Source: Zingiber officinale (taxonomy: Eukaryota; Streptophyta; Magnoliopsida; Zingiberales; Zingiberaceae). From it: a stretch of DNA of 64,000 nucleotides. The stretch lies in the NCBI RefSeq assembly GCF_018446385.1, contig NC_055987.1:3842205-3906204 (forward strand). Direction: 5' to 3'. The notes under the pieces are model-generated. The model did no database searches, had not been told where the DNA came from, and saw only the letters and a list, made by a program, of their open reading frames with translations. Every line of letters starts with the position of its first letter. Position 1 is the first letter of the stretch. A program made the position numbers and the translations under genes. Shown one piece after another: positions 6,962 to 55,666 of this stretch.

Positions 6962-8306
6962 TTGGCAGAAGTAAATAAGTTAAGTAAAATAGAATAAAGA
7001 AAATAGACACACAAAACACGATCGATTTACTTAGTTCGGAGTCTTTGATGACTCCTATTTTAAGACTCAGACCCATTGAACCTTTCTGATGGGTAATTCT
7101 CTATCAAATCGTTTCTTTACAAAAGATAGATTGATAATAAGACTACTAACCTTAGAATATAATATGTGGGAAGAAATCGAGAGTAATGTAAAGTAATAAC
7201 TACACGTTACCCAAGTCTAAGTTCATTTGAGCATGTAGCAGCGTCGTGTTGTTCTTGCGTCGTTGAGGCGTGAATGCGATAGCAGTGCAAGGTCATAGCA
7301 GCAGAATAATTTTAAGAGCTCGTGTATCAGTTATGTTTGAAGAACTGGCCAAAGACCTTTTTTATACACCATTAGAGGTGCCTCCAATGGTTCACATCGC
7401 CTCGAATGATGCTTATCCAATTCAGATTTTTCGGTTCTTATCTGCTCCAAGGTGCCTTCCATAAGCTCTGAGGCTCCTCTAATGTGCTCCGAGATGTCTC
7501 CAATCTGCTCCGAGGTGCCTCCCTATAGCAAAACTCTATCTTAGAACTGTATCTGCACGAGGGCACCCCTGTCCTATCTAGGATGTCTTCATTTGGCTCT
7601 GTGGTTCCTCCAGTCAACTCTAAGGCACCTCAAGTGTTGATCCGAGGTTAACTTTTGCATTTCAGCTCTTGCAAAACATGTTAGTCCAAATAACAAAGAT
7701 ACCCTGTAAAACAGAGTTAGAATATGAATAAAATAAATTTATAACTTAGATTCTTTCTTTCTGAGACTAGAATCTAGTCATGGTTTCAACTTAGACTTTC
7801 AAAATAAATCTAAGTTGGACCAGGGCCTACAACCACACTGGGGCTCATCCTCATTGGATTACTCTCCTCTAGTTATTTACCTGACCTTACCTGCCAAATA
7901 TTTGGTCCTCTAGACCTGTTTAGACTTTCTCTTATCGTCCTGCTTAGTGTCTGATCAACCTAATCAACTAAGACTTTCCTACAGCACCAAGTTAGCACAA
8001 TAGAAATGAAATAGTAAAGTAAAATTATGCTAGCAATTTTCAAGATTCGTTGGTCTGGTCGACCACGCGCGGTCGACCGAAAATCATTCCACCATATATG
8101 TTTGGAGTTTACTCCTCCAAGACTTTCCACTAATTAGGGTTACCTCCCCCTAGGATTTTTCACTGCATAGCTTCACTCACTAAGACTTCCACTACCTAAC
8201 TTCACTGACTAGGTCTTAACTTCACCACTTAGCTCACTCACTAGGATTTCCACCACTTGGACTGGTTTCACTTACCAGGACTTCATCTTGCCTAACCTCC
8301 AATTAG
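6962..8306 (-). mobile_element. LTR-type retroelement fragment (left part), unclassified
   Basis: Contains repeated short units such as CTCCGAGGTGCCTCC (about 7370-7640) and CTAACTTCACTCACTAGG-like units (about 8110-8306). Very similar units occur in the reverse-oriented LTR at 15630-17417. The sequence continues at 15391-15629 after the Athila-like insertion. Its own termini were not resolved. Confidence 0.45.
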
Positions 8307-8311
8307 GGCTA

Positions 8312-9897
8312 TGATGTGCGTAGATTATATACTCTTTTATGCATGTTTTTACGCACATTTACATATTTTGAGCATGCTTGATCTATGCATTTTTATACTT
8401 CCAGCTTTCCTTTTAGCATATTTACTCTTTTGGTTCGGAGATCTGCTTTTTGTGCATTTTCTGTGCACAGGAGTCGATTTGGTGAAGAATCTACATCTTT
8501 GGGCATGCATTGGAGGAAGCAAAGGGAGAAAGCACCGGGCCGTGTACCTCACACGGCCCTGCACTGGTATGGAGCTCGGGCCGTGTGGAGTTTGGCACCA
8601 ACAGAAGAGGAAGATGACATGGCCGTGTGAACCTCGCACGACCGTGTCAAGATTTGAAGCCTACCAGAGCAGAAGCCTTACATGGCCGTGTGGATCTACA
8701 CGGCCGTGAGACCAACAAGGCCCTGGTAGTGTGCACCACACGGCCAGAGTCATTTCCGAGGTTCTTGGCCGTGTGGCTACAGCAGGAGAGGGAATGGACA
8801 TGGCCGTGTGAATCTCACACTGCCGTGTCATGTGGCCCGATTTCCTCCTCTATTTAAACCCTTCTTCATGAATTGAAAGGATCTCTCCCCTTTGGGAGAA
8901 AGCAAGATTTGGTGGTTTCCTCCCATTCTTGGGAGGATTTCGGCGATTCTAAAGGAGATCTCGACGATTTCGACTCGCGAGGTTTGGATCCGAAGACGAG
9001 GCTTCTTCGTAGATAAGTTTTCTCTTTCCCCCTCTTCTTGATTTCTTGGATTGGGGATTTAAGAAATGCTTGTAATCTCTATTTCTTCGGGTTTTCTTCC
9101 TCGATTCATGGAGTAGATCTTGTATTCTAGGATTAAGGGAGTATTTGTATGATGGATTGATGTAATCTCTTATGGATTTGCCATTTTCTTGTTTCAATGA
9201 CATTGTCTTGCTTGTATCAATTAGATCTTGAATGATTAATGATGATTTGTGCTTAATTCTCATTCTTGATTGATTGTTTGGATTTCTTGTGGACTTTGTA
9301 AAGATAAACTCTCACTCGATCATCCGAGGGATCCACGTGACAGGTGCAGGCCCATGTAAGGACGTTTGAGAGATAATCTTGAAGAGGAAATGGGAATATT
9401 CAAGAGAGTAGGATGGATCTTGTGATTAGTTTCTTGTATCTTGATAGATTAATAAGTTGTGTGCTTCTATGTTGATATCCGAGAAAGGCATAGTAATAGG
9501 TGCGCTTCTGTGTAAGGACAACGTAGGTTCATGTTTAATTAATCCTATTTAGATACATTTCTCAGTCCTTAGCCGGTTGTCTATTGCAAGAGAGAACTGA
9601 CAACTTTCTACATGTTTGGCAATTGAGGGATAAGAATTGGTGAGCCATTTACATTCGAGAAATCTTACAAAGAAACCGAAACTCCTAGAATCTCCCTTTA
9701 GCATAATCCAAAACACTAAACTCTTGTTTGTTGATCTTTAAGATTAGATTTGTTTACCTTTACTTTGCTTTTAAAACGATTGGATAGTTGTTTAGCTAAT
9801 TCGCATTGAGACATTTCTAGTCTTATTCCAGTCCCTGTGGATACGATAATCTTTTATATTACTTGCGACATTTCCGTATACTTGCGGAGACCGAACA
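8312..9897 (+). repeat. 5' LTR of the Athila-like element
   Basis: 1586 bp, TG...CA ends. It has a block of short palindromes based on CACGGCCGTG (about 8536-8835) followed by a TATTTAAA-like box near 8852. It matches 13769-15385 almost base for base outside the palindromic block. Confidence 0.93.
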
Positions 9898-9903
9898 AGT
9901 TTT

Positions 9904-9921
9904 TGGCGCCGTTGCCGGGGA
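9904..9921 (+). promoter_or_regulatory. primer binding site, tRNA-Asp type
   Basis: TGGCGCCGTTGCCGGGGA, six bases after the 5' LTR. This is the canonical Athila/Tat minus-strand primer site. Confidence 0.92.
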
Positions 9922-10373
9922 CTGCGCTATAACATTAGGAATTATCAATTGAGTTAGACTAAACATAACTTTTCCTTTTTTCTTTTGATTTGCATAGTTA
10001 TAACTAATTGTTAGAATTCTGTTTTCGTAAGTTTTTCCTTTCTTGAATAACATTCTTGACAACTCTTTTTGTTGCAATTCTAATTCTAATTCTAACTTTG
10101 CATTCTTGATTTCTAGTACTCTAATCTAACTTTTCTCTGTTTTCTCTTTTGATCTTGTTTCTTTCTTCTTTTCTTTTGTAAACATATCTTGCAATTTTTA
10201 GCATATGAATTATTCTAGACATTTTTCTTTTTCCTTTTATCTTTTCTTTCTTGTTTTCATTATGCACTTTCTTTCTTGCAATTTAAATTCTGCATTTGCT
10301 TTCTTGCTTTTCATATTGCATTTTATTTCTTGTTTTTGATTCTTGATAATTTTCTTTTTCTCCTTGAATATCC

Positions 10374-12452
10374 ATGAGCACTAACATGTCAAGCAGACCC
10401 ATGAGAAATTTTTCTACACCCTTTTCTGCAAGATTTTTTATCTCCCATTGTGCAACCTCAAATTGAAGCAGAAAGTTTCCAACTAGACCCAAAGATAATT
10501 TTCATGATACAAGGTCACAAATTTGGAGGAGAAGTATCAGAAAGTCCTTATCTGTATCTTGAAACATTTTTAGAGATTTGTGATTTGGTGAAATGTGAAG
10601 GAGTATCAGCAGATGCAGTTCGGTTGATGACATTTCCTTTCAGTATCAAGGATAAAGCAAGGACTTGGCTATATTCTCTCTGTCCTCAAAGCATCACAAG
10701 TTGGGAACAATTGGAGAAGCAATTTCTGAATCATTTTTTCCCTCCAAGTAGAACGGTGTATATGAGGAATTGCATAACAAATTTTGCTCAGGCATATGGA
10801 GAATCATTATTTGAAGCATGGGATAGATTCAAGAGTCTTCAAAGACAGTGCCCTCATCATGGTTTTGAAAAATGGTTGATTTTACACATATTCTATGGGG
10901 GAATTTCTTTCTCAGACAAGACTTTATTGGATTCATCAGCTGGAGGTTCTTTTATGGACAAAAGTATAGATGAAGCTTATTCGTTAATTGATCAAGTGAC
11001 ATTGAACCTCCATGAATGGTCGAACAAAAGTTGGATGGAATTTCCCTCAGATATTCAAGAAGTGAAAGCCATAAATGTAAGAGAGTTCACAAACAAAATG
11101 AAATTCAACCACCTAAAAATGTTGAAATTCACAAGTCACAGAGTGAGGAGTTCAAACATTTGGGGGCAAAGCTTGATAGTATTGTTTCAAAATGGTCTAA
11201 AGAAGATCCCCCTCCTACACAGTCAAGATCCAATGAAAAGTGTGATGATGTTGGGTTGAGAAGTGGCAAAAATCATGAAGAACTTCTGAAGAATGACATG
11301 TTTAGAATTGAGGAGAAGAATAATAGAAGATCACAAGAACTCAGTTCCATTTCTCTGGGAAGTTCCCAAAGGCCAGAAGTACCTTTCCCTCAACGATTAA
11401 TCACACCAACATTAGATAAGCAAGTTGGACCTCCTCCAAAAGCTCAAAGGGAATTTGGGAAAAAGGGAGTTCAGTCTTTTTCAGGACCTTCACTAAGGGT
11501 TCCTTTTCCACAAAGGTTAGTGGGGGTCAATGAAAATAAAGACTTCGGCAAATCCTATGACACTAATATGGTTGAGTGTAGATTTTTGAATATATATGAA
11601 GATGAAGATTTTTCAGATGAGGATTTTATTGATAATGTAGTGGTAAATAAGTTTTCAGATCTATCTCAAAATTTTATAAGGTGTTATAGTGACATCGAAT
11701 TTTCAGATGATGAATGTGATGTGGTAGATCAACTTAAAACTACAAGTGAAGTTATTGATCCTCTTGTTATTGATTCTCCTATTGAGGACATAGATGTTGG
11801 TTTATTTTTTGATGTATGTGTTGATGATGATGATATGGAAGAATGTGTAGGGAGCTGTGTTGTGGAAGCAGCATCTCAAGGATCACCACCTTTGTCAAGA
11901 CAACCCTTAGAGATTTTAAGAATTGATCATGTTGTGGAACAATGTGTAGGGACTTATATAGAGCTAGTAGAGTCTCGAGAATCACCATCATTGATATCAT
12001 CAACACCTAAGCTAGAGCCAGAACCATCATTCGATTCAGAGGAAGTCACATCTACATGTTTAGAAATTTCAGGTATTTCTCAACAAAGTAAGGTTAGTTT
12101 TTCTTGTGATCTTTTGGAAAACTTTATGGAGGTACCTATAATTGACTTTGTTGGATGTGATTCAGTTTTTATTACTTATTCATCTTATCTTGATATGGTT
12201 CTAGCTCTATACTATATAACATGCTTGTGGGAGATTTGTTTTTCTTTTGGATGTGTAGATTTCACATGGGCCAATAATTGGAAGCTCAATCTGAACCGTC
12301 TTCGACCACCTGAAAAATTTTCCAAGAAGACGAAGATGGAGAGAGTTATACTTTACTTTGTAGCTCCTTTGATGAAAGCTCCCTCCATAATAAGAGCCCT
12401 TGGTAGGAGGGTTCTAAAATATCTTACCCCTCCAAGAGCAAGATTTAGATGA
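10374..12452 (+). pseudogene. gag: Athila-type gag with a long acidic C-terminal extension
   Basis: The reading starts at ATG 10374 and changes frame near the T-run at 10435. It continues as a 269-codon ORF with a clear Retrotrans_gag domain: motifs FLEICDLVK, KDKARTWLYSL, SWEQLEKQFLNHFFPP, YGESLFEAWDRFK and CPHHG. It shifts back near 11095 into a 450-codon stretch. Gag packages the RNA in virus-like particles in the cytoplasm. After the basic/proline-rich part comes an Asp/Glu-rich region (about 11590-12050, e.g. YEDEDFSDEDF) and then a basic tail, where pol would be expected. The first and last frames are the same, so two compensating indels may be enough to explain the break. I do not recognise the acidic part. 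Confidence 0.82.
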
Positions 12453-13768
12453 ATCTAATGAGGTGGTCGAGCTGATGACCTTAAACAAGCGCTTCTTGGG
12501 AGGCAACCCAAGTTCAATCTTGTTTTCATTTTGCTTTTAGTTTCTTTTTATTTTGTTGATAATAAATCATACCCTCTACTTAATTCTTCTTGTCTATCTT
12601 ATTTTTTGTAGATTTTAAAGTTGTGGAGGATTGAGAACATTGGATAGAGGAGTATCTAAAAAAAACATGAATGTCAACCATTTGGAGCTCATCACTTGGT
12701 AACTTCTCTTAAAATCTCCTCCACATTGTTTTTAGTTTTCATTGGGACAATGAAAAATTTAAGTCTGGGGGGATGCATTAGATGCATTTGATTTGCTTTG
12801 TTTGTTTTTGTTTTTGCTTATGTCTTGCATTTTGTTTTGATTTTTTGTGGCATACATCTTGAGAACATCAAAACTTCACTTATATGCTTTCTTGGATTCA
12901 AGTGAAATGTTAGCACGATTATTGTCTTGATTCATGATGTTCGAATGATGCTAGTAGTAAACTTTGTGTAGTTCTTTTTTCTATCTTGGGAAGCATTAAT
13001 AAGCTAAGAATCTTATGGTGATGAGTTTTAGTTTTGGTTCAACCTTAAGGATTTTATCTTCACTACACTTGTGCTTAATGCTTGAATAGTTGATGTCATT
13101 GAAATAGTCATTATTCATCTTGTTTGTTTAGTACTTGGTTTCCATGGTGATTTCTCAACTTTCATTTTGGTTACTGGATGAGGCTCAAATCATTAAAGCT
13201 CATTTGGAAAAATCAAAATATCCCAACATGTGTGCTAAAAGTACATTTGTGAATAAGTTTTGCACAATGCAAACACTTATAAAAAAAAAGGAAAAAAATA
13301 AATAAAAGAATAATAAGGGATATAAAAAACAGTTGTCATGAGTGGAATCTAGCAAGTCACCCCTTTGAGACCGAGTTAGGTTACTGGGGAAATGACTGTT
13401 TAGCTTCTCTTGAGATTGAGCACACCTTTGAGACCTTGGGTTAGTTGAGAAATATGAACCAAGTGAATGGTGAGTAAGTGTCTATCACTGGTTACTTGTC
13501 TTTCACTGGGAACACTAGGAATTCAAATTTGATGACGACTTGACAAGGACATGGATTGAAACTTGAAGGGTGTTGAGTTACTTTTACACTGCGCACAAGA
13601 TTCTTATGCTTGAACCACACTTTACTTGTTTCCATGATCATGCTTGTTAATGAAACTTTTTGATAGAGTTAGGAAAGTGCACTGGGTTTTATGAATGTGT
13701 TGTAGAACATATGAATTTAGACTGCAGCATTTTGCTTGAGGACAAGCAAAGGTTTAAGTCTGGGGGTG
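12453..13768 (+). other. 3' non-coding region and polypurine tracts of the Athila-like element
   Basis: Contains TTTAAGTCTGGGGGGATG near 12759 and a second copy TTTAAGTCTGGGGGTG at 13753-13768, directly before the 3' LTR. The second is the likely plus-strand primer. No ORF of note. Confidence 0.75.
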
Positions 13769-15385
13769 TGATGTGCGTAGATTATATACTCTTTTATGCA
13801 TGTTTTTACGCACATTTACATATTTTGAGCATGCTTGATCTATGCATTTTTATACTTCCAGCTTTCCTTTTAGCATATTTACTCTTTTGGTTCGGAGATC
13901 TGCTTTTTGTGCATTTTCTGTACACAGGAGTTGATTTGGTGAAGAATCTACATCTTTGGGCATGCATTGGAGGAAGCAAAGGGAGAAAGCACTGGTCGTG
14001 TACCTCACACGGCCTTGCGGTATGGAGCTCGGGCCGTGTGGAGTTTGGCACCAGGAAGAGGAAGATGACATGGCGTGTGAACCTCGCCGTGTCAAGATTA
14101 AGCCTACGCAGCGAAGCCTTACATGGCGTGTGGATCTACAGTGTGAGATTTCGAGACCAAGCGGTGTGGTCGTGTGCACCACACGGCCGTGTAGCATTTC
14201 CAGAGAGAAAGGGTTCGGCCGTGTGGAGACACACGGCCGTGCAGCATTGGCAGAGAGGGAACTGGACATGGCCGTGTGAATCTCACACGGCCGTGTCACG
14301 GGGCCGTGTGGCGTCCGATTCCCTCCTCTATTTAAACCCTTCTTCATGAATTGAAAGGGGATCTCTCCCCCTTTGGGAGAAAGCAAGATTTGGTGGTTTC
14401 CTCCCATTCTTGGGAGGATTTCTGGGCAATTCTAAGGGAGATCTCGACGATTTCGACTCCGGAGCGAGGTTTGGATCCGAAGACGAGGCTTCTTCGTAGA
14501 TAAGTTTTCTCTTTCCCCCTCTTCTTGATTTCTTGGATCGGGGATTTAAGAAATGCTTGTAATCTCTATTTCTTCGGGGTTTCTTCCTCGATTCATGGAG
14601 TAGATCTTGTATTCTAGGATTAAGGGAGTATTTGTATGATGGATTGATGTAATCTCTTATGGATTTGCCATTTTCTTGTTTCAATGACATTGTCTTGCTT
14701 GTATCAATTAGATCTTGAATGATTAATGATAATTTGTGCTTAATTCTCATTCTTGATTGATTGTTTGGATTTCTTGTGGACTTTGTAAAGATAAACTCTC
14801 ACTCGATCATCCGAGGGATCCACGTGACAGGTGCAGGCCCGTGTAAGGACGTTTGAGAGATAATCTTGAAGAGAAAATGGGAATATTCAAGAGAGTAGGA
14901 TGGATCTTGTGATTAGTTTCTTGTATCTTGATAGATTAATAAGTTGTGGGCTTCTATGTTGATATCCGAGAAAGGCATAGTAATAGGTGCGCTTCTGTGT
15001 AAGGACAACGTAGGTTCATGTCTAATTAATCCTATTTAGATACATTTCTCAGTCCTTAGCCGGTTGTCTATTGCAAGAGAGAACCGGCAACTTTCTACAT
15101 GTTTGGCAATTGAGGGATAAGAATTGGTGAACCATTTACATTCGAGAAATCTTACAAAGAAACCGAAACTCCTAGAATCTCCCTTTAGCATAATCCAAAA
15201 CACTAAACTCTTGTTTGTTGATCTTTAAGATTAGATTTGTTTACCTTTACTTTGCTTTTGAAACGATTGGATAGTTGTTTAGCTAATTCGCATTGAGACA
15301 TTTCTAGTGCTTATTCCAGTCCCTGTGGATACGATAATCTTTTATATTACTTGCGACATTTCCGTATACTTGCGGAGACCGAACA
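13769..15385 (+). repeat. 3' LTR of the Athila-like element
   Basis: 1617 bp. Compared with the 5' LTR it carries many 1-4 bp losses or gains confined to the CACGGCCGTG palindrome block (about 13990-14330). The remainder is nearly identical. Confidence 0.93.
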
Positions 15386-15629: not shown

Positions 15630-17417
15630 TGTTAGGGTCGATTTGTAGCTAGAGGGGGGGGGGGAATAGCTCATCGCACTTCGGCTGCTTGCTTTAATGA
15701 TGTTGTTGCAGCGGAAAATACTCAAGCAACTCTCACAATGCTAACACAAGGAATTTACTTAGTATCCACCTCAAGAAGAGATACTGACTAATCCAAGGAT
15801 CCACACATGTAAGCACTCTCCACTAAGAAAGAAATACTCCTTCTCGCTAACTACTAGAGGTGAAGAAACCTCGTACAATACTCACACAACATACAACACA
15901 ACGCAAGAAGAAAAATATAAGTACATGAAGGAAAAACCTTTTCTTGCTTGACTTTGTTGTAGTTGATCGCCTCTTGAACCATAGAAGTGCAGCAGCACTT
16001 GTCCCTAAGAGCTTCCAAGAACTGGAGGTGGGTGTCGTAGAAGATCGCGTGAGCTGGAGAGGAAGTAGAGTTCCAGCATTTGAATGCTTCGTTACCTTTA
16101 TATCTGTGCTTCTAGGGCTTCCAATCGATTGGGGCTCCTGCCAATCGATTACCACGTCAGATCCCAGCGATCTCGACCGTCCAAAACCTGCATCCTACGC
16201 AACGGTCGTATCCCAATCGATTGATCAATCGATTAGGGAGGCTTGAATCGATCGGCTGATCGAATCAGAGCGCCTCTGTGCTCTTCGCTGGAAAAGCATG
16301 CATTGATCTCCCAATTGATTCAGCCTTTATCACATCGCACGCGATTTCTAGCTGCCAATCGATCGGTGCCCAATCGATCGGCGGTGTCCAATCGATCAGC
16401 TGATCGATTGCTGATACCCAATCGATCGACTGATCGATTAAGGAGGATTCTGTGTACGCGATATAAGCTCCCAATCGATCAGCTGAGCGATTGGGCTGCC
16501 ATTTGTCGCAGCACTGTACCCAATCGAACAGCTGATCGATTGAGCTTGGTCTAATTTGATCAGTTGATCAAATTGACCAACCCTAGCTTGCCCGAGTCAA
16601 GTCTAGGGCTCCCAAACCCAACGTCTGGTCAATCGTGACCAATTGGGACTCCTTGTGCCTAGTATCCGGTCAACCTTGACCTGCTGTGACTTCTTCACCA
16701 AGTGTTCGGTTAATCCTTTGACCCACTTGGACTTTTCTCCTCGTGCCAAGTGTCCGGTCAATCTTGACCCACTTGGACTTACCATCTAGTGCCAAGTGTC
16801 CGGTCCTCCATGACCCACTTGGACTTCCACCAAATGTCCGGTCACCCTTGACCCATCTGGACTTTCTTGTGCCAAGTATCCGGTCAATCCTTTGACCTAC
16901 TTGGGCTTCCCAACACTAGGTGTCCGGTCAACCTTGACCCACCAAGATTTCCATATGTCTGACTTCACTCAACAGGTCTTTCTTTCTGTCTAGTTTCACT
17001 CATTAGGGCTTTCCATCTGTCTGACATCACTCATCAGGACTTTCCATCTGCCTTTCTTCACTCACCAGGACTTTTCATCTGCCTAACTTTACTCACTAGG
17101 TCTTTCACTTGACTTCACTCACCAGGATTTTTCAACTGTATAGCTTCACTCACTAGGTCTTTCAACTGCCTAACTTTCAGTTAGGACTTTCTCAGTCAAG
17201 TATCCGGTCAACCTTGACCTACTTGACTCTTTTTCACATCAAACTGGTCATCCCTTGACTAGAGGGGAATTGGATCAACAAACTCCCCAATCGGATGATC
17301 GCATCTGTAATCTCTACATATTGTCAAACATCGAAACTCAAACATCAAGACTCAAACTTGAGCTAACTCAAGCATAGTCAACCTGGTCAACCTAACTCAG
17401 GAGATATTGCACCAATA
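15630..17417 (-). repeat. Sirevirus-like LTR, reverse orientation
   Basis: On the minus strand it starts TATTGGTGCAATATC (first bases mutated from TG), preceded by the purine tract AAAAAGGGGGAGAT, and ends CGACCCTAACA at 15630. It contains strings of hairpin units such as CCAAGTG...CACTTGG (16746-16776). It also has many CAATCGAT/ATCGATTG palindromes (16120-16550) and a C-run of the type that ends Ty1 LTRs of this group. About 1.8 kb. Confidence 0.75.
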
Positions 17418-27207: not shown

Positions 27208-28357
27208 TGATACGGTGTATAAAGGTGGGGTCCAGTAGGGTCAGACAGTCAGAAGTCAAGGAGACATGACAGTCAAAAGTCAAGGGGATGTGACAGTCAA
27301 AAGTCAAGAGGGCGTGTCAGTCAGAAGTCAAGGGGGGTGTGACAATCAGGAGTCAAGGGGACGTAACAGTCAAAAGTCAAGAAGACATGACAGTTAAAAG
27401 TCAAGGGGAAGTGACAGTCAGAAGTCAAGGGGACGTGACAATCAGAAGTTAAGGGGACGTGACAGTCAGCAGTTAGGAAAAAGAGTTGGACCGCTTGACG
27501 TCATCAGCCGCATAATTCCCGATCGAGGGATTACAGATCAGGATTCCAGATCAGGGACATAAGGCATAGCTTGGAGTAAGGCCCGACCTTCCTCGATTTG
27601 TCTGGTTCCCTCAACCAGATCTGCATAGACAGGCCTGGTACTTTTAGTAAGATAGCCCCCGGCTGACCTTCCAGTACTCCAAGCGTGGAGGAGGGAACCC
27701 TAGTCTCAGCTTGTCTCCCTCATTAAGACTTGAGCCATGTGCCACATCCTAACAGCCATCCCAAGCTGCCCATAGCTAAATCCGGGCGGGACAAAAGGCA
27801 CTAGGCGACAACAATATCAGGGAATCGTAACCGCCTATCAGACAATATCTGGCATATGTCAAGAAATATTCTAATGGTCTGCTGTCATCTGCGAATGGAA
27901 CCTTCTTTCAGTCCATAGGAGGGTGTTATGCATCCTCCATCACCCGACAGGCCCTGACACCCGTCATTTTCTGACATCGGTCAATTCCCAGAGGTACGCA
28001 CGGTCATATAAAAAGGGAGGCCCTCTCCCTTGAGCAGGTACGCTTTCTCGTACATTCACACTTATCTTCTACAGTTCTTTTCCCTTCGTACACTATTCTT
28101 CTAGGGAAAAAGTACTTGACTTAAGCGTCGGAGGGCCTGCATCAGAGACTTTTTCCCTGGTTTATGATCTCTAACATTCCGTGTGCTTGTCTGAGTGTGC
28201 GCAAAGCCTAAGTACCACCGGGTAGGTCACCGCCGTCCTTCAGTTTCACATGGGGGTTTGTTTTCCGATGTACATACGCAAATGTCCCGAGTCACCTCTC
28301 CGTCAACCGACGACACCTTAACTGGCCTTCATCTGACTCAGATTCCAGACAGGATCA
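27208..28357 (+). mobile_element. solo LTR (1150 bp) with 24-bp tandem repeats
   Basis: TGATACGGTG...AGGATCA, flanked by TACTC at 27203-27207 and 28358-28362. TATA-like CATATAAAAAG is at 28005-28015. The first quarter is a tandem array (27244-27477). The TNP2 reading resumes on both sides, so the insertion split the transposase gene. Confidence 0.9.
27244..27477 (+). repeat. 24-bp tandem repeat, about 10 copies
   Basis: Units of the form GACAGTCAGAAGTCAAGGGG plus ACGT, with 0-4 substitutions each; one unit is 25 bp. Confidence 0.9.
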
Positions 28358-29917: not shown

Positions 29918-30720
29918 TGTTGGTACAATATTCCTTATGTCAAGGTTGACTTTGTTGACTAAACTTGAGAAGGCTCAAGCTTGAGTCTTGATATTTGTGT
30001 TTCGATGTTTGACAATACATTAACAATACATGGAGATTGCAGGTGCAATTGTTCATATGGGGAGATTGTTGGTGCAATTCTCCATTGGTCAAGGTTGGCC
30101 AGTTAGATGTGAAGAAGAGTCAAGTAGGTCAAGACTGACTGGATACTTGACTGGAAAGTCCTGGTGAGTGAAGCCAGACAGATAGAAAGTCCTGGTGAGT
30201 GAAGCCAAGCAGATGGAAAATTCTGATGAGTGAAACCAGGTGAAAGGTCTAGTGAGTGAAGCTAGGTAGAGAAGAAGTCCTGGTGAGTGAAGCCAGACAG
30301 TTGGAAAATCCTGGTGAGTGAAGCCAGGTGAAAGACCTAGTGAATGAAGCTAGGCAGTATGAAAACCCTAGTGAGTGAAGCTAGGTGAAAGTCCTAGTGA
30401 GTGAAGTTAGGCAGAAGAGAAGTCCTGATGAGTGAAGCCAGACACGTGAAAATCTAGGTGGGGCAAGGTTGATCAGACACCTGGTATAGAGAAGTCCAAG
30501 TAGGTCAAAGGTTTGACTGAATACTTGGCACAAGGAGAAAAGTCCAAGTGGGTCAAAGAGATGATCAGACACTTGGTGAGGAAGTCCTAGCAGGTCGAGG
30601 GGTGATCGGATGCTAGGCATGATATCCCAACAGGTCATGGTTGACCAGATGTTGATTTTAGGGGTTTGGGACTTGATTAGGGTAATTCAAGATGATTCAA
30701 TCGATCAACCGATAGATTGA
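29918..30720 (+). repeat. truncated Sirevirus-like LTR
   Basis: Starts TGTTGGTACAATATTCC and is homologous to the reverse complement of the LTR at 15630-17417. It contains strings of hairpin units, e.g. CAAGTA...TACTTG (30121-30149) and several CCTGG/CCTAG-GTGAGTGAAG units (30168-30430). It stops within a CGAT-palindrome stretch. Confidence 0.7.
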
Positions 30721-33144: not shown

Positions 33145-34223
33145 TGTTGGTGTCGTTAACACTAACGGTCTAATCCAGGTTTTGATTAATGACAAAATAG
33201 GTTAAGTTAGTTTTGCTGTTGATCTAACACTCTGACCGAGTGTGCAGGAGAAGTCCAGACAGGTCGACAGGCTGATTGGATGTCTGGCACGAAGCCCAAC
33301 TAGGTCGACGGGCCGACCAGATAGCTGACACGAAGTCCAAACTGGTCGACGGACTGACCGGACGTTTGGCACGAAGTCCAGCTAGGTCGACGGGCTGACC
33401 GGATAGCTGGCACGAAGTCCAAACGGGTTGAAGGGCTGACCAGACGTCTGGCAGGTAAGTGGAGGTAAGTCACTAGAGGGGAGTGACTGTGAGGACGCGT
33501 TCCCGGGAAGGGAACTTAGGCACCGATCCGACTTAGAACCATCTCGGAACTCTAAGTCGAGATCTTGACTAGATTTCGGTCTCAGAGAGACGAAATCTAA
33601 TTATTATTTTTCTTATCTATAAAATTGTGGTAACAATCTGTGTTGCAGGGTATAATTATCTCGGACTAAAGTTTTTCTTGCAGGAAGGAGTTTGCTGGAA
33701 AACTTGGGTCCGGGCGCCCGGGAGGTACCCAGGCGCTCAGGAGATACCCGGGCGCCTGGAGGCAAATTCTATCATCTTCTCATCGCCGCCACGTGGAGTC
33801 TCCTGGTTGGGTCGGCTATGTCATGGTCGAGGCGCCCTGAGCCTCCTATATAAGGAGGGTCAAAGGCGGAGCTCCAACAACAACTCACGATCTGCTCTTC
33901 TGCACTCCTGCGACGCTGCGAAAGCTCTTCGACAAATTGCTAGTTTGTTTGTAATTGTTTTTTATTGTCGGTTCTTTCATTCTCTAATAATTCTTGTACT
34001 TGTTTTGTAATCTACATTTCAAATTATTAGTGATTGTCCATCGAAAGCACCCTTGTGTGCGAGCCTTGGAGTAGAAATCGACACAGGCTCTGAACCAAGT
34101 AAAAAATTACTCGTGTCATTTCTTTTTCGCTTTACTTATTCCGCTGCATATTCTTGATAATTTTTTTAATCGATATTCACCCCCGCCCCCTCCCCCCCTC
34201 TATCGAACGTCTACGATCCAACA
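33145..34223 (+). repeat. 3' LTR of a Sirevirus-like element
   Basis: TGTTGGTGTCG...GATCCAACA, 1079 bp. It contains hairpin units (CCAGACA...TGTCTGG at 33255-33287; CCAGCTA...TAGCTGG at 33378-33410), GGGCGCCC-type palindromes (33712-33760), TATA box TATATAA (33847-33853), and a C-rich CCCCGCCCCCTCCCCCCC tract near the end. The matching 5' LTR is not in the window next to this element. Confidence 0.78.
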
Positions 34224-38390: not shown

Positions 38391-38437
38391 TGTAAAAAAA
38401 ATAATTGGATAGAAATAAAAAAAGAATACTTCATATG

Positions 38438-39235
38438 CCGATCGGACGATCATAACATCCTCATGATTTACACTACATCTTTGAGATGTGATCTAATTCA
38501 TCCGATCGATAAAGAAACATAGGGACACAAGAATCTGGGGATAGAGGATCTCATCTCAAAATGAGATGAGATCCTCTGTCCTTAGATTTTTGTATCCTCA
38601 TGTCCTTTTGTTAATCGGACGGTTATAATATCCTCATGATTTGCATTACATCTTTGAGATGTAACTTAATCTGTCTGATCGACAAAGAGACATAGGGACA
38701 CAAGAATCTGGGGACAGAGGATCTCATCTCAAAATGAGATGAGATCCTCTGTCCCCAGATTTTTGTGTCCCTATGTCCTTTTGTCGATTGGACGATCATG
38801 ACATCCTCATAATTTGCACTACATCTTTGAGATGTGATATAATCTGTCCGATCAACAAAGAGGCATAGAGACACAAGAATCTAGGGACAGAGGATCTCAT
38901 CTCAAAATGAGATGAGATCCTTTGTCCCCAGATTTTTATGTCCCCATGTCCTTTTGCCGATTGGACGATCATGACATCCTCATGATTTGCACTACATCTT
39001 TAAGATGTGATCTAATCCGTCTGATCGACAAAGAAACATAGGGACACAAGAATCCGAGGACCGAGGATCTCATCTCAAGTCCCTAGATTTTTATGTCCCC
39101 ATGTCTTTTTCAAACGGACGGTCATGACATTCTCATGATTTATACTACATCTTTAAAATATGATCTAATTCGTCTGATCAATAAAGAGATACAAGAATTA
39201 GGGACAGAAGATCTCATCTCATCTAAAATATGAAA
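38438..39235. repeat. 173-bp tandem array, each unit with an ~87-bp palindrome
   Basis: Units start at 38438, 38611, 38784 and 38957 (exact 173-bp spacing), with a shortened fifth at about 39111. Each unit has a near-perfect inverted repeat. In unit 2 it is 38690-38776, with arms of ~43 bp, roughly one mismatch, and centre CTCATCTCAAAATGAGATGAG. Unit 4 has lost most of one arm. It lies less than 300 bp upstream of the H4 core promoter. Confidence 0.95.
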
Positions 39236-45787: not shown

Positions 45788-46130
45788 AAAGGCAAGAGTG
45801 GCGGACCAAGGCCAAGCGCGGTCGGCAAAGCCCATCCGTGACTGACAAAGCTTAGACGCGGCTTCCCAATGCTAGGCAAGGCTAGCCGTAGCTATTCGTA
45901 GTCACCCAAGGCCAGTTGTGCCTGCGGGCAACCAAGGTCAGCGTGGCCACCGATGGCCAGCCAACCAAGGCCAACCACAGGGTCTCGTGGATAGTCGCGA
46001 CCAGCCAAGGCCAGTCGCAAGGTCCCGCAGCTACCCGTAGCAGGCCAAGGCCAGTTGCTTGTCAAAGAGGGAAGACATGGATGAGGGGAGAGAGAGGGAG
46101 CCTACCGGATGGAGATCGTTGTTGTAAGAG
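45788..46130 (+). repeat. 343-bp direct duplication, left copy
   Basis: Nearly identical to 55324-55666. Rich in CCAAGGCCAG-type words. It directly precedes the 5' LTR of the Angela-like element. Confidence 0.95.
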
Positions 46131-47938
46131 CCCTAGAGCCAATCATATGATGATTGTTGTATGGACTCGATGTATCATATTCCTATATATTTATAAAGGC
46201 ATTTCTTTATAGTTATTATACTTACTTGTATTGGTGCCAAATAACTAAGTATAATAACGTCCTTGAGTAGAAGGTTCTTATCTATATCAATCGATTGGTT
46301 GAATCGATAGTGAGATGATATAGAGAACACTACTCTTAATTATTCCTAGTCAAGTATTAACATTCAGGGACAATGTTAATGCGATGAGACTAGCATGTAG
46401 GTGAACTCGATGACTTGATCTCACAAATCATGGATATAGAGATATCAAGTTGACACATAGGTATGCATTGGAGAATGTATACTGAATGACCCACCATGAG
46501 AAAGTATCATGGATCGTTATATGAGTGTCATATATTTTCTCATGTGACTATTAGTATGACTATGAGTCCTTGGACCTGAAGTCACCATGGTTCCCTACAT
46601 AAGGAGTTGCATACTTTGACTTCGTCAAACGTCACCCGTAACTTGTGGACTATAAAGACGATTACTGGTGTGTAACAAATTATGCGGAGGGATGTGAGTG
46701 ATGTAGATGAGATATATCCCTCCTATATGATGGGAGTGACATCATGATTCTTGATAGAGTGAGACCACTAAGTGCATGACCATGTCCAAATGAGTCAATA
46801 TGAGATTTGAGCTCATTTGTTTAGAGTGAGTCTACTTGGAGTTCAAGATATAGATTGATTAGAGGATGCCACGGTCTATGCCTCAATTTAATCAATTTAG
46901 ATGTCAAGGATAGAAGGACATTATCATATATTGTGAGAGTCACAATTAGTAGTCACAAAGGTGATGTTGGATCTCAACATTCTTGTAACTTGGGTAGTAA
47001 TGATGTGTTGCTAGATATCGCTCATTACTTATGATTCTAAATGAGTTTAGGAGCATTTTCAATGTTACAAGGACCTATAGGGTCACACACAAAGGGCAAT
47101 TAGATGGAGAATAGGTTCATATGATAAACCAAGAGGATTAGGTTCATCTGATGAACCAAATTGGATTAAGAGTAATCCAAATTAGACTAATTGAGTTGGA
47201 CTCAATTTGATTCATGTGTCCAATGAGTCTAATTTAGATTATGACTTATTGAATCAATTTAATTCAATGAATAGAGATTCATTAAATCAAATTGACTTAA
47301 ATCAATGGTTAGATTTGATCAACCATCGGAGATAAATGAGTCAAGTTTGACTTGACTTGAGAGGGAAGATGAAGGGTCAAGTTTGACTTGACCAAATGTC
47401 ACCTCATTGTGACTTGGCATAGGGCCGGCCAATGATAGTGTTCCACATCATTAAGGCCACATCATTGTGTGCCACCTCATGAAGGAGACCAAGAGTCATG
47501 ACTATTGGTATTACATGGAGGTATAAGAACCTCTAAATGTGGCCGGCCACATTAGTGTAGTGAGTTACATTTTGTGTACTCATTCGAGAGATCATCTTCT
47601 TCCTCCTCTCTTCTCTTCTCTCCCTCTCATCCTCCATTGCAGAGCCACCCAAGAGTGCTAGCACACTCTAAGTGGTTCTTCTCCACCTTTTGTCCGTGTG
47701 AATACTTGAAGAGGAGTGTTCACTTGACACTCTACGAGATCTGACAATTTTTGGACGAGCGGGATAAGCGAAGGGTTTCGCGACAAAGGTATACTCTCTT
47801 TTCAGGTAGATCTAAGGTAGATCTAGTGTAGAAACATGTACATGATTTAATTTTTAATATATCTTCGCACGGATCCGAGGCTAGAATTCAGGGTTTCCGC
47901 AACGCAAAAAGCGATTTTTGCGGCTCAAATTGCTAACA
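46131..47938 (+). repeat. 5' LTR of the Angela-like element (first bases missing)
   Basis: Matches 51519-55324 from CCCTAGAGCCAATC onward. The first ~8-10 bp of the LTR are replaced by flanking sequence (GTTGTAAGAG). Ends TTGCTAACA. Confidence 0.93.
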
Positions 47939-51504: not shown

Positions 51505-52014
51505 TGCTAATGGGAGATTGTTAGTTAGAGCCCTAGAGCCAATCATATGATGATTGTTGTATGTACTCGATGTATTATATTCCTATATATTTATAAAGGC
51601 ATTTCTTTATGGTTATTATACTTACTTGTATTGGTGCTAAATGTTGGTGCAACCTTAGGTCAAGGTTGACCTGACTCGAGTTGACCTGACTCGAGTTGTA
51701 TTTTGATGTTTGACGAGAATAGAAAAGTTCTATTCTGATGTTTGACGAGAATAGAAGAGTTGTATCTTGATGTTTGACAAGAATATTGGAAAACTTGGGA
51801 GGTCGTGGGTGCAACCCTTGGTCAAGGTTGACCTGGTTGACCCGACTTGAGTTGATCTATTTCAAGAAGTCCAAGCAGGGAACTTGGCACGGGAAAAGTC
51901 CAAGTATGGAGACTTGGCACGGAAAAGTCCAAGCAGGGAGCTTGGCATGGGAAAAGTCCAAGCAGGGACTTGGCACGGAGAAGTCCAAGTATGGAAGCTT
52001 GGCATGTGGAAGTC

Positions 52015-52280
52015 GGAGAGGGCTTGGTAGCTCGTTCTCCGGACTATGGTCAGAGAGGGCTCGGTAGTTCGTTCTCTAGACCTGATGGAGTCGGAGAGGG
52101 CTCGGTAGCTCGTTCTCTGGACCGGATGTGGAAGTCGGAGAGGGCTCGGTAGCTCGTTCTCCGGACTAGGTCAGAGAGGGCTTGGTAGCTCGTTCTCTGG
52201 ACCGAACGAAGTCGGAGAGGGCTCGGTAGCTCGTTCTCCGGACTAAGTCAGAGAGGGCTCGGTAGCTCGTTCTCTAGACC
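52015..52280 (+). repeat. ~45-bp tandem repeats in the solo LTR
   Basis: Seven copies of GAGAGGGCTYGGTAGYTCGT followed by TCTCYRGAC, with spacers of variable length. Confidence 0.88.
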
Positions 52281-52299
52281 AGGAAGGCAGATAGAAAAT

Positions 52300-52672
52300 C
52301 CTGGTGAGTGAAGCCAGGTAAAAGTCCTAGTGAGTGAAGCTAGGCAGTTTGGAAGTCCTGGTAAGTGAAGCCAGGCAGATTGGAAATCCTGGTGAGTGAA
52401 GCCAGGTGAAAACCCTAGTGAGTGAAGCTAGGTGAAAGTCCCGGTGAGTGAAGCCGGGCAAGGAAAAATCCAGATGGATCAAGGATGATCGGACATCTGG
52501 TGTTGAGAAGGTCAAGTAGGTCAAGGGAGTGACCGGATACTTGGCACGAAGAGAAAAGTCCAAGTGGGTCAAAGGGATTGACCGGACACTTGGTGGGGAG
52601 TCTTAGCAGGTCAAGGGAGTGACCGGATGCTAAGCATGATGTACCAACAGGTCAAGGTTGACCGGATGTTGG
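52300..52672 (+). repeat. array of about 11 hairpin units with covarying stems
   Basis: Six short units of the form CCTGGTGAGTGAAGCCAGG, with stems CCTGG/CCAGG, CCTAG/CTAGG and CCCGG/CCGGG. They are followed by five longer units with outer stems CCAGAT/ATCTGG, CAAGTA/TACTTG, CCAAGTG/CACTTGG, CTTAGC/GCTAAG and CCAACA/TGTTGG around a conserved GGTCA...TGACC inner stem. Confidence 0.9.
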
Positions 52673-55323
52673 TGTGGGAGACTTGGGACTTGGTATTGGG
52701 AAAAACCAAGCTCTGGATCGATCTGGGGACCGATCCAGTGATACGGCTGATCGGTCTGGTGACCGATCAGTAACCAAACAGAATGCTTCTGTGGATTATC
52801 TGATCGGTCTGGTGACCGATCAGAAGCGAAGAAGATCGGGAGAAGAAAGAGGGGGATCGGTCTGTGGACCGATCCACCTGAGTCCTGATCGGTCCACAGA
52901 TCGATCAGAGACGAGGCCAACTCTCACAGAGAGTTGGCTGATCGGTCTGGGGACCGATCAGGCTAAGGCCTGATCGGTCCCAAGACCAATCAGAACACTC
53001 CTGGACCGATCAGGAGTGTGCTTGATCGGTCCAGTCCCTAGCCGTTGCGACACAATGGCTAGTTTATGTGTCTTCTTCTTCGCAGGTTATATATCGAGGT
53101 TGAGGGCCTCTACAGTAACAGTTCTTGCCCTTCCTCCTTACTGCAAACAGAGCTTTGCTGAGCTCTCATTTTCCTGAAGCTTCGTGGAAGCTTCCTTCGG
53201 CTGGTTCCTGTTGTTGTAGGTGTTTCGTGAAGTTACTGCTTCATCCAGTCGACGAGAAGGCAAGCTGTGTTTTTACATTCTTACTGCCTTTGTATTGTGT
53301 TGTATCTTTGTACTTCTATCTTGCTGTTGCAAGAAGTTTGTGGCGAGGTTTCTCCACCCAGAAGGAGTTTCTATTAGCCGGTTTTCCGGGGTCTCATCCA
53401 CCGACGGATTGAGAGGATTCGTCCACCTTACGGACACGCCGAGGAGTAGGAGTTTCATCTCCGAACCTCGTTACATCGCTGTGCTTGAGGTTTGATTTCT
53501 CCATTTACGTTTCTGTTGTTTTTTTCCGCTGCGCTAACTTGATTTGTAGAAAGAAACGCGAATTTGGGATCGACTATTCACACCCCCCCTCTCTAGCCGC
53601 ATCCGAAGGTCCTAACACTAAATAACTAAGTATAATAGCATCCTTGAGTAGAAGGTTTTTATCTATATCAATCGATTGGTTGAATCGATAGTGAGATGAT
53701 ATAGAGAACACTACTCTTAATCATTCCTAGTCAAGTATTAACATTCAGGGACAATGTTAATGCGATGAGACTAGCATGTAGGTCAACTCGATGACTTGAT
53801 CTCACAAGTCATGGATATAGAGATATCAAGTTGACACATAGGTATGCATTGGAGAATGTATACTGAATGACCCGCCATGAGAAAGTATCATGGATCGTTA
53901 TATGAGTGTCATATACTTTCTCATGTGACTATTAGTATGACTATGAGTCCTTGGACCTAAAGTCACCATGGTTCCCTACATAAGGAGTTGCATACTTTGA
54001 CTTCGTCAAACGTCACCCGTAACTGGGTGGACTATAAAGGCGATTACTGGTGTGTAACAAATTATGCGGAGGGATGTGAGTGATGTAGATGGGATCTATC
54101 CCTCCTATATGACGGGAGTGACATCATGATTCTTGATAGAGTGAGACCACTAAGTGCATGACCATGCCCAAATGAGTCAATATGAGATTTGAGCTCATTT
54201 GTTTAGAGTGAGTCTACTTGGAGTTCAAGATATAGATTGATTAGAGGATGACACGGTCTATGCCTCAATTTAATCAATCTAGATGTCAAGGATAGAAGGA
54301 CATTATCATATATTGTGAGAGTCACAATTATTAGTCACAAAGGTGATGTTGGATCTCAATATTCTTGTAACTTGGGTAGTAATGATGTGTTGCTAGATAC
54401 CGCTCATTACTTATGCTTCTAAATGAGTTTAGGAGCATTGCCAATATTACAAGAACCTATAGGGTTACACACAAAGGGCAATTAGATGGAGAATAAGTTC
54501 ATATGATGAACCAAGAGGATTAGGTTCATGTGATGAACCAAATTGGATTAAGAGTAATCCAAATTAGACTAATTGAGTTGGACTCAATTTGATTCATGTG
54601 TCCAATGAGTTTAATTTAGATTATGACTCATTGAATCAATTTAATTCAATGAATAGAGATTCATTAAATCAAATTGACTTGAATCAATGGTTAGATTTGA
54701 TCAACCATGGGAGATAAATGAGTCAAGTTTGACTTGACTTGAGAGGGAAGATGAAGGGTCAAGTTTGATTTGACCAAATGTCACCTCATTGTGACTTGGC
54801 ATAGGGTCGGCCAATGATGGTGTTCCACATCATCAAGGCCACATCATTGTGTGCCACCTCATGAAGGAGACCAAGAGTCATGACTCTTGGTATTACATGG
54901 AGGTATATGAACCTCTAAATGTGGCCGGCCACATTAGTGTAGTGAGTTACATTTTGTGTACTCATTCAAGAGGTCATCTTCTTCCTCCTCTCTTCTCTTC
55001 TCTCCCTCTCATCCTCCATTGCCGAGCCACCCAAGAGTGCTAGCACACTCTAAGTGGTTCTTCTCCACCTTTTGTCCGTGTGGATACTTGTAGAGGAGTG
55101 TTCACTTGACACTCTACGAGATCCGACAAGAAATTTTTGGACGAGCGGCATAAGTGAAGGGCTTCGCGACAAAGGTATACTCTCTTTTCATGTAGATCTA
55201 AGGTAGATCTAGTGTAGAAACATGTACATGATTTAATTTTAAATATATCTTCGCACGGATCCGTGGCTAGAATTCGGGGTTTCCACAATGCAAAAAGCGA
55301 TTTTTGCGGCTCGAATTGCTAAC

Positions 55324-55666
55324 AAAGGCAAGAGTGGCGGACCAAGGCCAAGCGCGGTCGGCAATGCCCATCCGTGACTGACAAAGCTTAGACGCGGCTT
55401 CCCAATGCTAGGCAAGGCTAGCCGTAGCTATTCGCAGTCACCCAAGGCCAGTTGTGCCTGCGGCCAACCAAGGTCAGCGTGGCCGCCCATGGCCAACCAA
55501 CCAAGGCCAACCGCAGGGTCTCGTGGATAGTCGCGACCAACCAAGGCCAGTCGCAGGGTCCCGCAGCTACCCGTAGCAGGCCAAGGCCAGCTGCTTGTCA
55601 AAGAGGGAAGACATGGATGAGGGGAGAGAGAGGGAGCCTACCGGATGGAGATCGTCGTTGTAAGAG
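55324..55666 (+). repeat. 343-bp direct duplication, right copy
   Basis: Same length as 45788-46130, with a few substitutions. It starts directly at the end of the 3' LTR. Confidence 0.95.

Follow-up and report, generated by a model that had tools for sequence, protein, structure and literature searches.

The outer stems of the long hairpin units in a solo LTR with Sirevirus kinship covary: their letters differ from unit to unit and between LTR families, and the two arms stay complementary. The preliminary description of this part of the window (the whole stretch of 64,000 nucleotides analysed here) had assigned compensatory changes to the stems of a short and of a long class. The claim is borne out where the outer stems of long units are concerned; for the short class and for the inner stem of the long units it is not supported. 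All eleven units, six short and five long (52300-52673), are present with all the arms that had been named, and the nesting of the long hairpins is confirmed (Table 1).

The hairpin string extends past these eleven units, as arrays I, II and V lie in the same LTR. In array IV the inner arms are GGTCA/TGACC, in its first unit GATCA/TGATC, with a loop of 4-7 nt and a GGA bulge on the right, and the long module measures 31-34 nt. Because the TATATAT motif stands downstream of all five arrays, they are placed in U3 and would stand only at the 3' end of genomic RNA. Arrays III and IV together (408 nt, 52283-52690), which lie upstream of the likely TATA box, fold better than 100 out of 100 dinucleotide shuffles, be it as plus-strand RNA (z -4.55), as minus-strand RNA (z -6.56) or as single-stranded DNA (z -7.20). 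Array V reaches z -12.53 as RNA, arrays I and II together only z -1.79. Perfect hairpins (arms of at least 7, loop 3-30) are modestly enriched in the span of the eleven units, with 3 against a shuffle mean of 0.38 (maximum 3); over 51860-53040 there are 21 against 1.80 (maximum 7). Other parts of the window equal or exceed this, with up to 28 per 1181 bases and a median of 7. The sequence GGTCAAGGTTGACC of the long-unit core is also found at 51658-51671 and 51819-51832, in the 5' terminal part of the LTR, and the long class might have arisen from these copies.

Table 1. Positions of the hairpin arrays, their units, the host LTR and related LTRs in the window.
Feature	Position	Strand	Description
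Solo LTR A	51642-53617	+	1976 bp, termini TGTTGG...CCTAACA
Target duplication of LTR A	51637-51641 and 53618-53622		CTAAA
Array I	51869-52002	+	five units GTCCAAG...CTTGG
Array II	52012-52279	+	seven units GTC(G/A)GAGA...TCTC(C/T)(G/A)GAC
Array III (short class)	52300-52458	+	T(G/A)AGTGAAG enclosed by a 5-bp stem; six hairpins
Short units	52300-52318, 52326-52344, 52357-52375, 52388-52406, 52414-52432, 52440-52458		third unit with core TAAGTGAAG
Array IV (long class)	52470-52673	+	five nested hairpins, 7-bp outer stem
Long units	52470-52500, 52512-52544, 52560-52593, 52602-52634, 52643-52673		first unit with inner GATCA/TGATC
Array V	52713-53033	+	long palindromes with GATCGGTC/GACCGATC
TATATAT, likely TATA box	53088-53094	+	downstream of all five arrays
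Paralogous empty target site	46239-46243	+	CCAAA, in segmental duplicate of the LTR flanks
LTR B, related	30120-30656	+	short and long units, decayed; long-stem order as in A
LTR C, related	16617-17226	-	nine long units; short units present but decayed
LTR E, other family	33255-33451	+	five long-type units, other stems, core GGTCGA...TGACC

That the string resides in a solo LTR was borne out by the termini, by the target duplication on both sides and by an empty paralogous site. The flanks of LTR A are part of a segmental duplication (K2P = 0.033), in which 46239-47938 is 96.5% identical to 53620-55324 and, on the other side, 46119-46242 is 95.2% identical to 51518-51642. Since the paralogous site (about 46239-46243) is uninterrupted, LTR A was inserted after the duplication of its flanks. 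LTR A is also a mosaic: up to about 52830 it is about 98% identical to close copies (four copies compared), between about 52840 and 53340, where the second half of array V, the TATA box and the probable R are located, only 30-75%, and beyond about 53340 again about 95% for a stretch. Judged from these identities, the hairpin string was apparently retained when another promoter module took the place of the old one.

The genome (3.09 Gb, 211 contigs) was scanned for relatives of this LTR with the array as query. The A-like sample used below comprises the best 30 of 40 scored copies, out of 2524 candidates; it contains the window copy, takes in both LTRs of several elements and possibly represents both haplotypes. 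The K2P distance between the two LTRs of an element is 0.012-0.025 in five pairs, and 0.055, 0.085 and 0.243 in three more, two of these three being partial comparisons. On C2 (129673513-129684176) three array matches lie about 5.1 kb apart, and the middle LTR of this trio (L017) is preceded by a PPT and followed by a PBS, like a tandem LTR-interior-LTR-interior-LTR.

The proposed kinship with Sireviruses is substantiated by these relatives. The Sirevirus PBS is defined as TATCAGAGC after CA and ATTGG/AGTGG (PMC2829016), and an exact AGTGGTATCAGAGC is found immediately 3' of the LTR end in 12 of the 30 close copies, a count in which solo or 3' LTRs cannot show a PBS and the solo window copy has none. 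The PPT AGGGGGAG followed by AT/TG occurs in 11 of the 30, and each of these eleven has two to five extra copies of it upstream; PBS, PPT and multiple linker PPTs are marks of Sireviruses (PMC2829016). Palindromic repeats with a CGG-CCG core upstream of the TATA box are represented by array V and TATATAT. A polyC-rich CCCCCCCTCT occupies 53583-53592 (+), which leaves 25 bp to the LTR end, and corresponds in position to the stretch described as putative integrase signal of Sireviruses (PMC2829016). The interior of one relative (3001 bases) contains a zinc knuckle (31.4 bits, above the cut-off) and a copia-gag match of 17.0, which is below the cut-off of 27; no pol domain was found in the two scanned frames out of three of at least 90 aa. 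Because A-like LTR copies are mostly paired at a spacing of 5.0-5.7 kb and the scanned frames lack a pol domain, the family looks non-autonomous.

In the long class of LTR A 34 of 35 stem pairs are complementary, which among the 120 permutations of an arm-swap test is reached only by the true one. The corresponding fractions are 0.033 for LTR E and 0.0001 for LTR B, and for LTR C none of 20,000 sampled permutations. LTR E, whose family is known from the window alone, has stems of other sequence, in which 31 of 35 pairs are complementary. The 25 long units of LTRs A, B, C and E could be aligned without difficulty; their outer stems contain 42 doubly changed paired cells against 13.1 +/- 3.2 after shuffling (0/500), with changes on both sides at 7 of 7 pairs, and a control in which the partner was slid by 1-3 columns gave at most 5 cells. 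The pair next to the bulge covaries as well, being A-U in 13 and G-C in 10 of the 25 units.

In a wider set, 285 long units were collected from 80 genomic loci, 138 of them distinct, and of 559 short units 239 are distinct. This set was compared with a tree-aware null, for which each column's substitutions were distributed anew over the unit tree. In the outer stem of the 138 long units 218 cells are changed on both sides and still pair; the null gives 21.7 +/- 14.9 (maximum 105), and none of 400 replicates attained the observed number. For the inner stem we counted 5 cells against 7.5 (214/400), that is, no covariation in the 138-unit set; in the window units its signal is marginal (2 cells vs 0.5, 34/500). 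In this set the unit finder missed nearly all A-like unit-1 stems (inner arms GATCA/TGATC), so that for the A-like copies the other slots carry the result; A-like unit 1 is included in the close-copy stem count given below. A measure based on the fraction of paired cells was set aside because the null spreads late decay over old branches. With an R-scape-like test (APC-corrected G, same tree null) stem pairs make up six of the best ten pairs of the pooled long set, the best two outer pairs having E 0.08 and 0.19 and the others 1.3 to 38. One pair in the B-like subset has E 0.02, and it is the sole pair below E 0.05. The covariation suggested before is significant in the complementarity test; the R-scape-like test is weaker, and with relatedness taken into account most of its stem pairs do not reach significance.

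Individual slots show how the stems differ. The stem of unit 4 is CTTAGCA/TGCTAAG or CCTAGCA/TGCTAGG depending on the family, with T-A in 28 of 29 A-like copies and C-G in B-like ones (7/14 exact). Unit 1 has CCAGATG/CATCTGG or CCAGGTG/CACCTGG, i.e. A-T or G-C, and the outermost pair of unit 5 is A-T, C-G or T-A across families, where mispaired C.T and T.G also occur. Ten perfect long stems are joined by 13 paired changes, and five of the nine links are single-pair steps. The independent paired changes are few (about a dozen), and as samples the slots of LTRs A, B and C depend on one another. Some slot words are found across families, namely CAAGTG in slot 3, TAGCA in slot 4 and CCAACA in slot 5. 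Conservation between families decreases from the inner arms over the outer arms to the spacers. In MAFFT alignments to the window copy (30 B-like loci and 18 of 20 C-like loci, two being dropped for coverage) the identities for B-like/C-like copies are 0.877/0.889 in the inner arms, 0.836/0.867 in the bulge, 0.849/0.791 in the outer arms, 0.761/0.746 in the loop and 0.760/0.615 in the spacer.

The short class behaves differently. All 30 pairs of array III are complementary, which a fraction of 0.0167 of 720 permutations reaches, and this class consists essentially of two stem types that are one pair apart: 258 of the 266 perfect stems among the 559 short units are CCTGG or CCTAG. The third type, CCCGG-CCGGG, is private to the window copy; the same slot in 28 other readable close copies is CCTGG/CCGGG in 19, CCTAG/CCGGG in five and something else in four. 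The one variable pair has E 2.2 in the pooled R-scape-like test. The pooled complementarity test gives 76 against 34.9 cells (9/400), and within the A-like copies alone there is no significant covariation (72/400). The arms of array I do not covary (swap test 0.90), nor is the swap test significant for array II (0.40), where five of the seven units were caught by the pattern; the pattern lists of LTRs B and C also hold 3 and 1 non-units.

On the short time scale the stems decay. Compared with the commonest arms, the stem cells of the 30 close copies show 49 one-sided changes, shared changes being counted per copy, and no two-sided change; one of the copies (L008) lacks all units except the last. 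The stem columns are no less variable than the rest (0.0154 vs 0.0110). One-sided changes together with variable stem columns indicate that inserted copies decay like neutral sequence. Independent mutation of the two sides in other copies had been named beforehand as speaking against structural covariation, and in the short term this is what happens; over the long term the pairing is kept. Seven LTRs, from the four places C1, C2, C11 and C16, contain a mispaired CCAGATT/CATCTGG or a derivative of it, and 17 of 17 C-like unit-4 stems carry a C.A mispair. As such mispaired stems were mobilised, perfect pairing of every unit is not needed for spread. A preference for G-U over A-C on the transcribed strand was not found either: GT/TG and AC/CA cells number 119:119 in the short and 52:60 in the long class, mostly in dead copies, which makes this weak evidence. 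Given the one-sided changes, the mobilised mispairs and the lacking G-U preference, selection for RNA structure, one of the two causes put forward in the preliminary description, is not demonstrated.

How then could the outer arms stay matched? We suggest that the string is a tandemly amplified palindromic cis-region in the U3 of a Sirevirus LTR, upstream of the TATA box. Each long unit would be a dyad, with a core conserved by letter (GGTCA...TGACC and the one-sided GGA) within 7-bp outer arms whose letters are free to drift as long as complementarity stays. In active elements selection would keep the outer arms paired or dyad-symmetric, so that they change largely one pair at a time, by way of mispaired states that are tolerated, and in dead inserted copies each arm would decay independently. 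We see an even chance for this view, in which dyad units evolve slowly and for the most part in steps that preserve pairing, under selection in active elements. We infer that the pairing is due to selection and not to a mutational process. The inner core might then be a dyad binding core, and its sequence presumably resembles an inverted W-box (TTGACC); the outer arms might be a clamp kept by pairing. The form that folds or is bound could be RNA or single-stranded cDNA, or else duplex DNA to which a dimer binds. In view of the W-box resemblance of the core, we consider it most likely that the units are a platform for transcription factors that has a structural clamp.

A related explanation does without folding. 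If the arm pairs were half-sites for a dimeric DNA-binding protein, the units would be pure DNA-level dyads and the covariation a switching between site types. This would fit the missing G-U preference and the conservation of the inner arms as letters, which we take to read as inverted W-box-like TTGACC, and several outer arms contain a CANNTG that we assume to be an E-box (CAAGTG, CAGATG, CAGGTG). The region lies upstream of the TATA box, and the factor sites reported in Sirevirus repeats are mainly stress-related (PMC2829016). However, the outer stems CAAGTA, TTAGCA and CCAACA share no site and are equally well paired. Because arbitrary letters are matched across the outer stems, a single factor does not explain the pairing, and we regard this explanation as unlikely, even if it deserves consideration.

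Only slightly less weight is given to template switching. Such a quasi-palindrome correction, in host replication or during reverse transcription, uses one arm as template for the other and yields matching arms without selection. Hairpins can arise and persist through template switching (PMC8794818), and in yeast it is known to correct quasi-palindromes (PMC3820800); moreover, four of the nine links between perfect long stems need two pairs at once. Pair-restoring change is common to these hairpins and to our units, but the footprints expected from template switching (inversions, loss or mirroring of the bulge) are not found in the units. None of 675 short cores is inverted. The GGA bulge is on the right in 275 of the 318 long-type cores examined, the other 43 being 29 other palindromes (mostly of array V) and 14 cores too poorly paired to place. 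If copying were primed in the inner stem, the bulge should be lost or mirrored, and so its constant position on the right speaks against template switching, although the pair adjoining the bulge does covary. The stems also end at 7 bp, with an eighth pair complementary in 10% of the distinct units, and two-sided changes are absent from the 30 close copies. The same lack of inverted cores, the right-side bulge and the stop at 7 bp disfavour the cruciform-based copying that had been offered as the second possible cause.

Shared descent of a few ancestral palindromes that were duplicated and are now decaying fits the two types of the short class (72/400 within close copies), array I, the one-sided decay and the weak R-scape-like E-values, but as an account of the long class, with its tree-aware null (0/400), the paired replacements at orthologous slots and the different, mostly paired stems of LTR E in a second family, we hold it to be very improbable.

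Returning to dyad units maintained by selection, the closest known counterpart are the repeated motifs (RM) of Sirevirus LTRs, which were described by Bousios et al. 2010 as palindromic repeats upstream of the TATA box (PMC2829016). The LTR studied here agrees with that description in having many palindromic units in the upper LTR half, in their position relative to the TATA box and in related palindromes in the linker, here of the full-length relative L082. Array V (CGGTC...GACCG) is the counterpart of the published CGG-CCG repeat, as in Osr8 and Osr10. In contrast to the one consensus palindrome per element given there, LTR A has five arrays of different type, and its long units are nested, have a one-sided bulge and outer arms which vary by unit and yet pair. 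Arrays I-IV do not contain the CGG-CCG palindromic core as such, and the long units have CCGGA on one side. At the place of array V, LTR C (16100-16600, -) has different palindromes of the type CAATCGATCAGCTGATCGATTG, which resemble the published Tnd-1 repeat ACAATCGATTGT (PMC2829016). The letters of array V therefore change between families and the palindromy is kept.

Palindromes able to form hairpins are also described from maize Sireviruses (Bousios et al. 2016, as cited in PMC10760457 and PMC5311732), and they share with our units a palindrome-rich cis-region with predicted strong structure. In maize this region is reported as a small-RNA hotspot of high sequence variability; covariation of the arms, a feature of the units here, is not mentioned in the accounts of these two citing papers. 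The preliminary description considered a tandem string of covarying hairpins as not described. For the palindromes upstream of the TATA box (PMC2829016) and the hairpins of maize (PMC10760457) this is not correct; for covarying LTR hairpin units no description was found among the open-access papers searched, as judged by titles and the beginnings of abstracts. On the evidence of the sequences, the covarying outer arms of the long units may be seen as a variation on known LTR palindromes.

Sirevirus palindromes have so far been interpreted either as boxes for regulation or as hotspots of small RNAs, and in both cases the fold itself or the letters might be what matters. In one repeated module of 31-34 nt the inner stem is kept by letter and the outer stem by pairing. 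Two demands are thereby separated, which makes the question of fold versus letters testable by reporter assays. A more speculative idea, which we think rather improbable, is that of ordered, addressable hairpins: the stem word of each slot would be kept across families on a common core and change only as matched pairs, the fold being kept while the letters recognised by host small RNAs change, so that an arms race would be recorded in compensatory changes. If true, such a string could keep a required fold and evade host small RNAs in trans.

Some other observations concern the occurrence of the motifs and the rest of the window. In a collection of viral contigs neither of two unit patterns had a match, and among genome contigs outside the source genome the unit motif matched once, in a contig labelled Bordetella MAG. 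The Rfam scan of the window gave a single match, unrelated to the hairpin units, namely the snoRNA snoR71 at 10760-10865 (-) with 57.8 bits (gathering 40), in the stretch of a frame (10405-11259) that matches Retrotrans_gag. This frame lies between two direct repeats of 1.6 kb (8306-9897 and 13763-15385, 93% identical), and the region 8306-15385 is probably a full-length LTR element. Further, the window contains a 173-bp tandem repeat at 38436-39221, the units of which also resemble their own reverse complement, and a 24-bp tandem repeat with 9.5 copies at 27244-27473.
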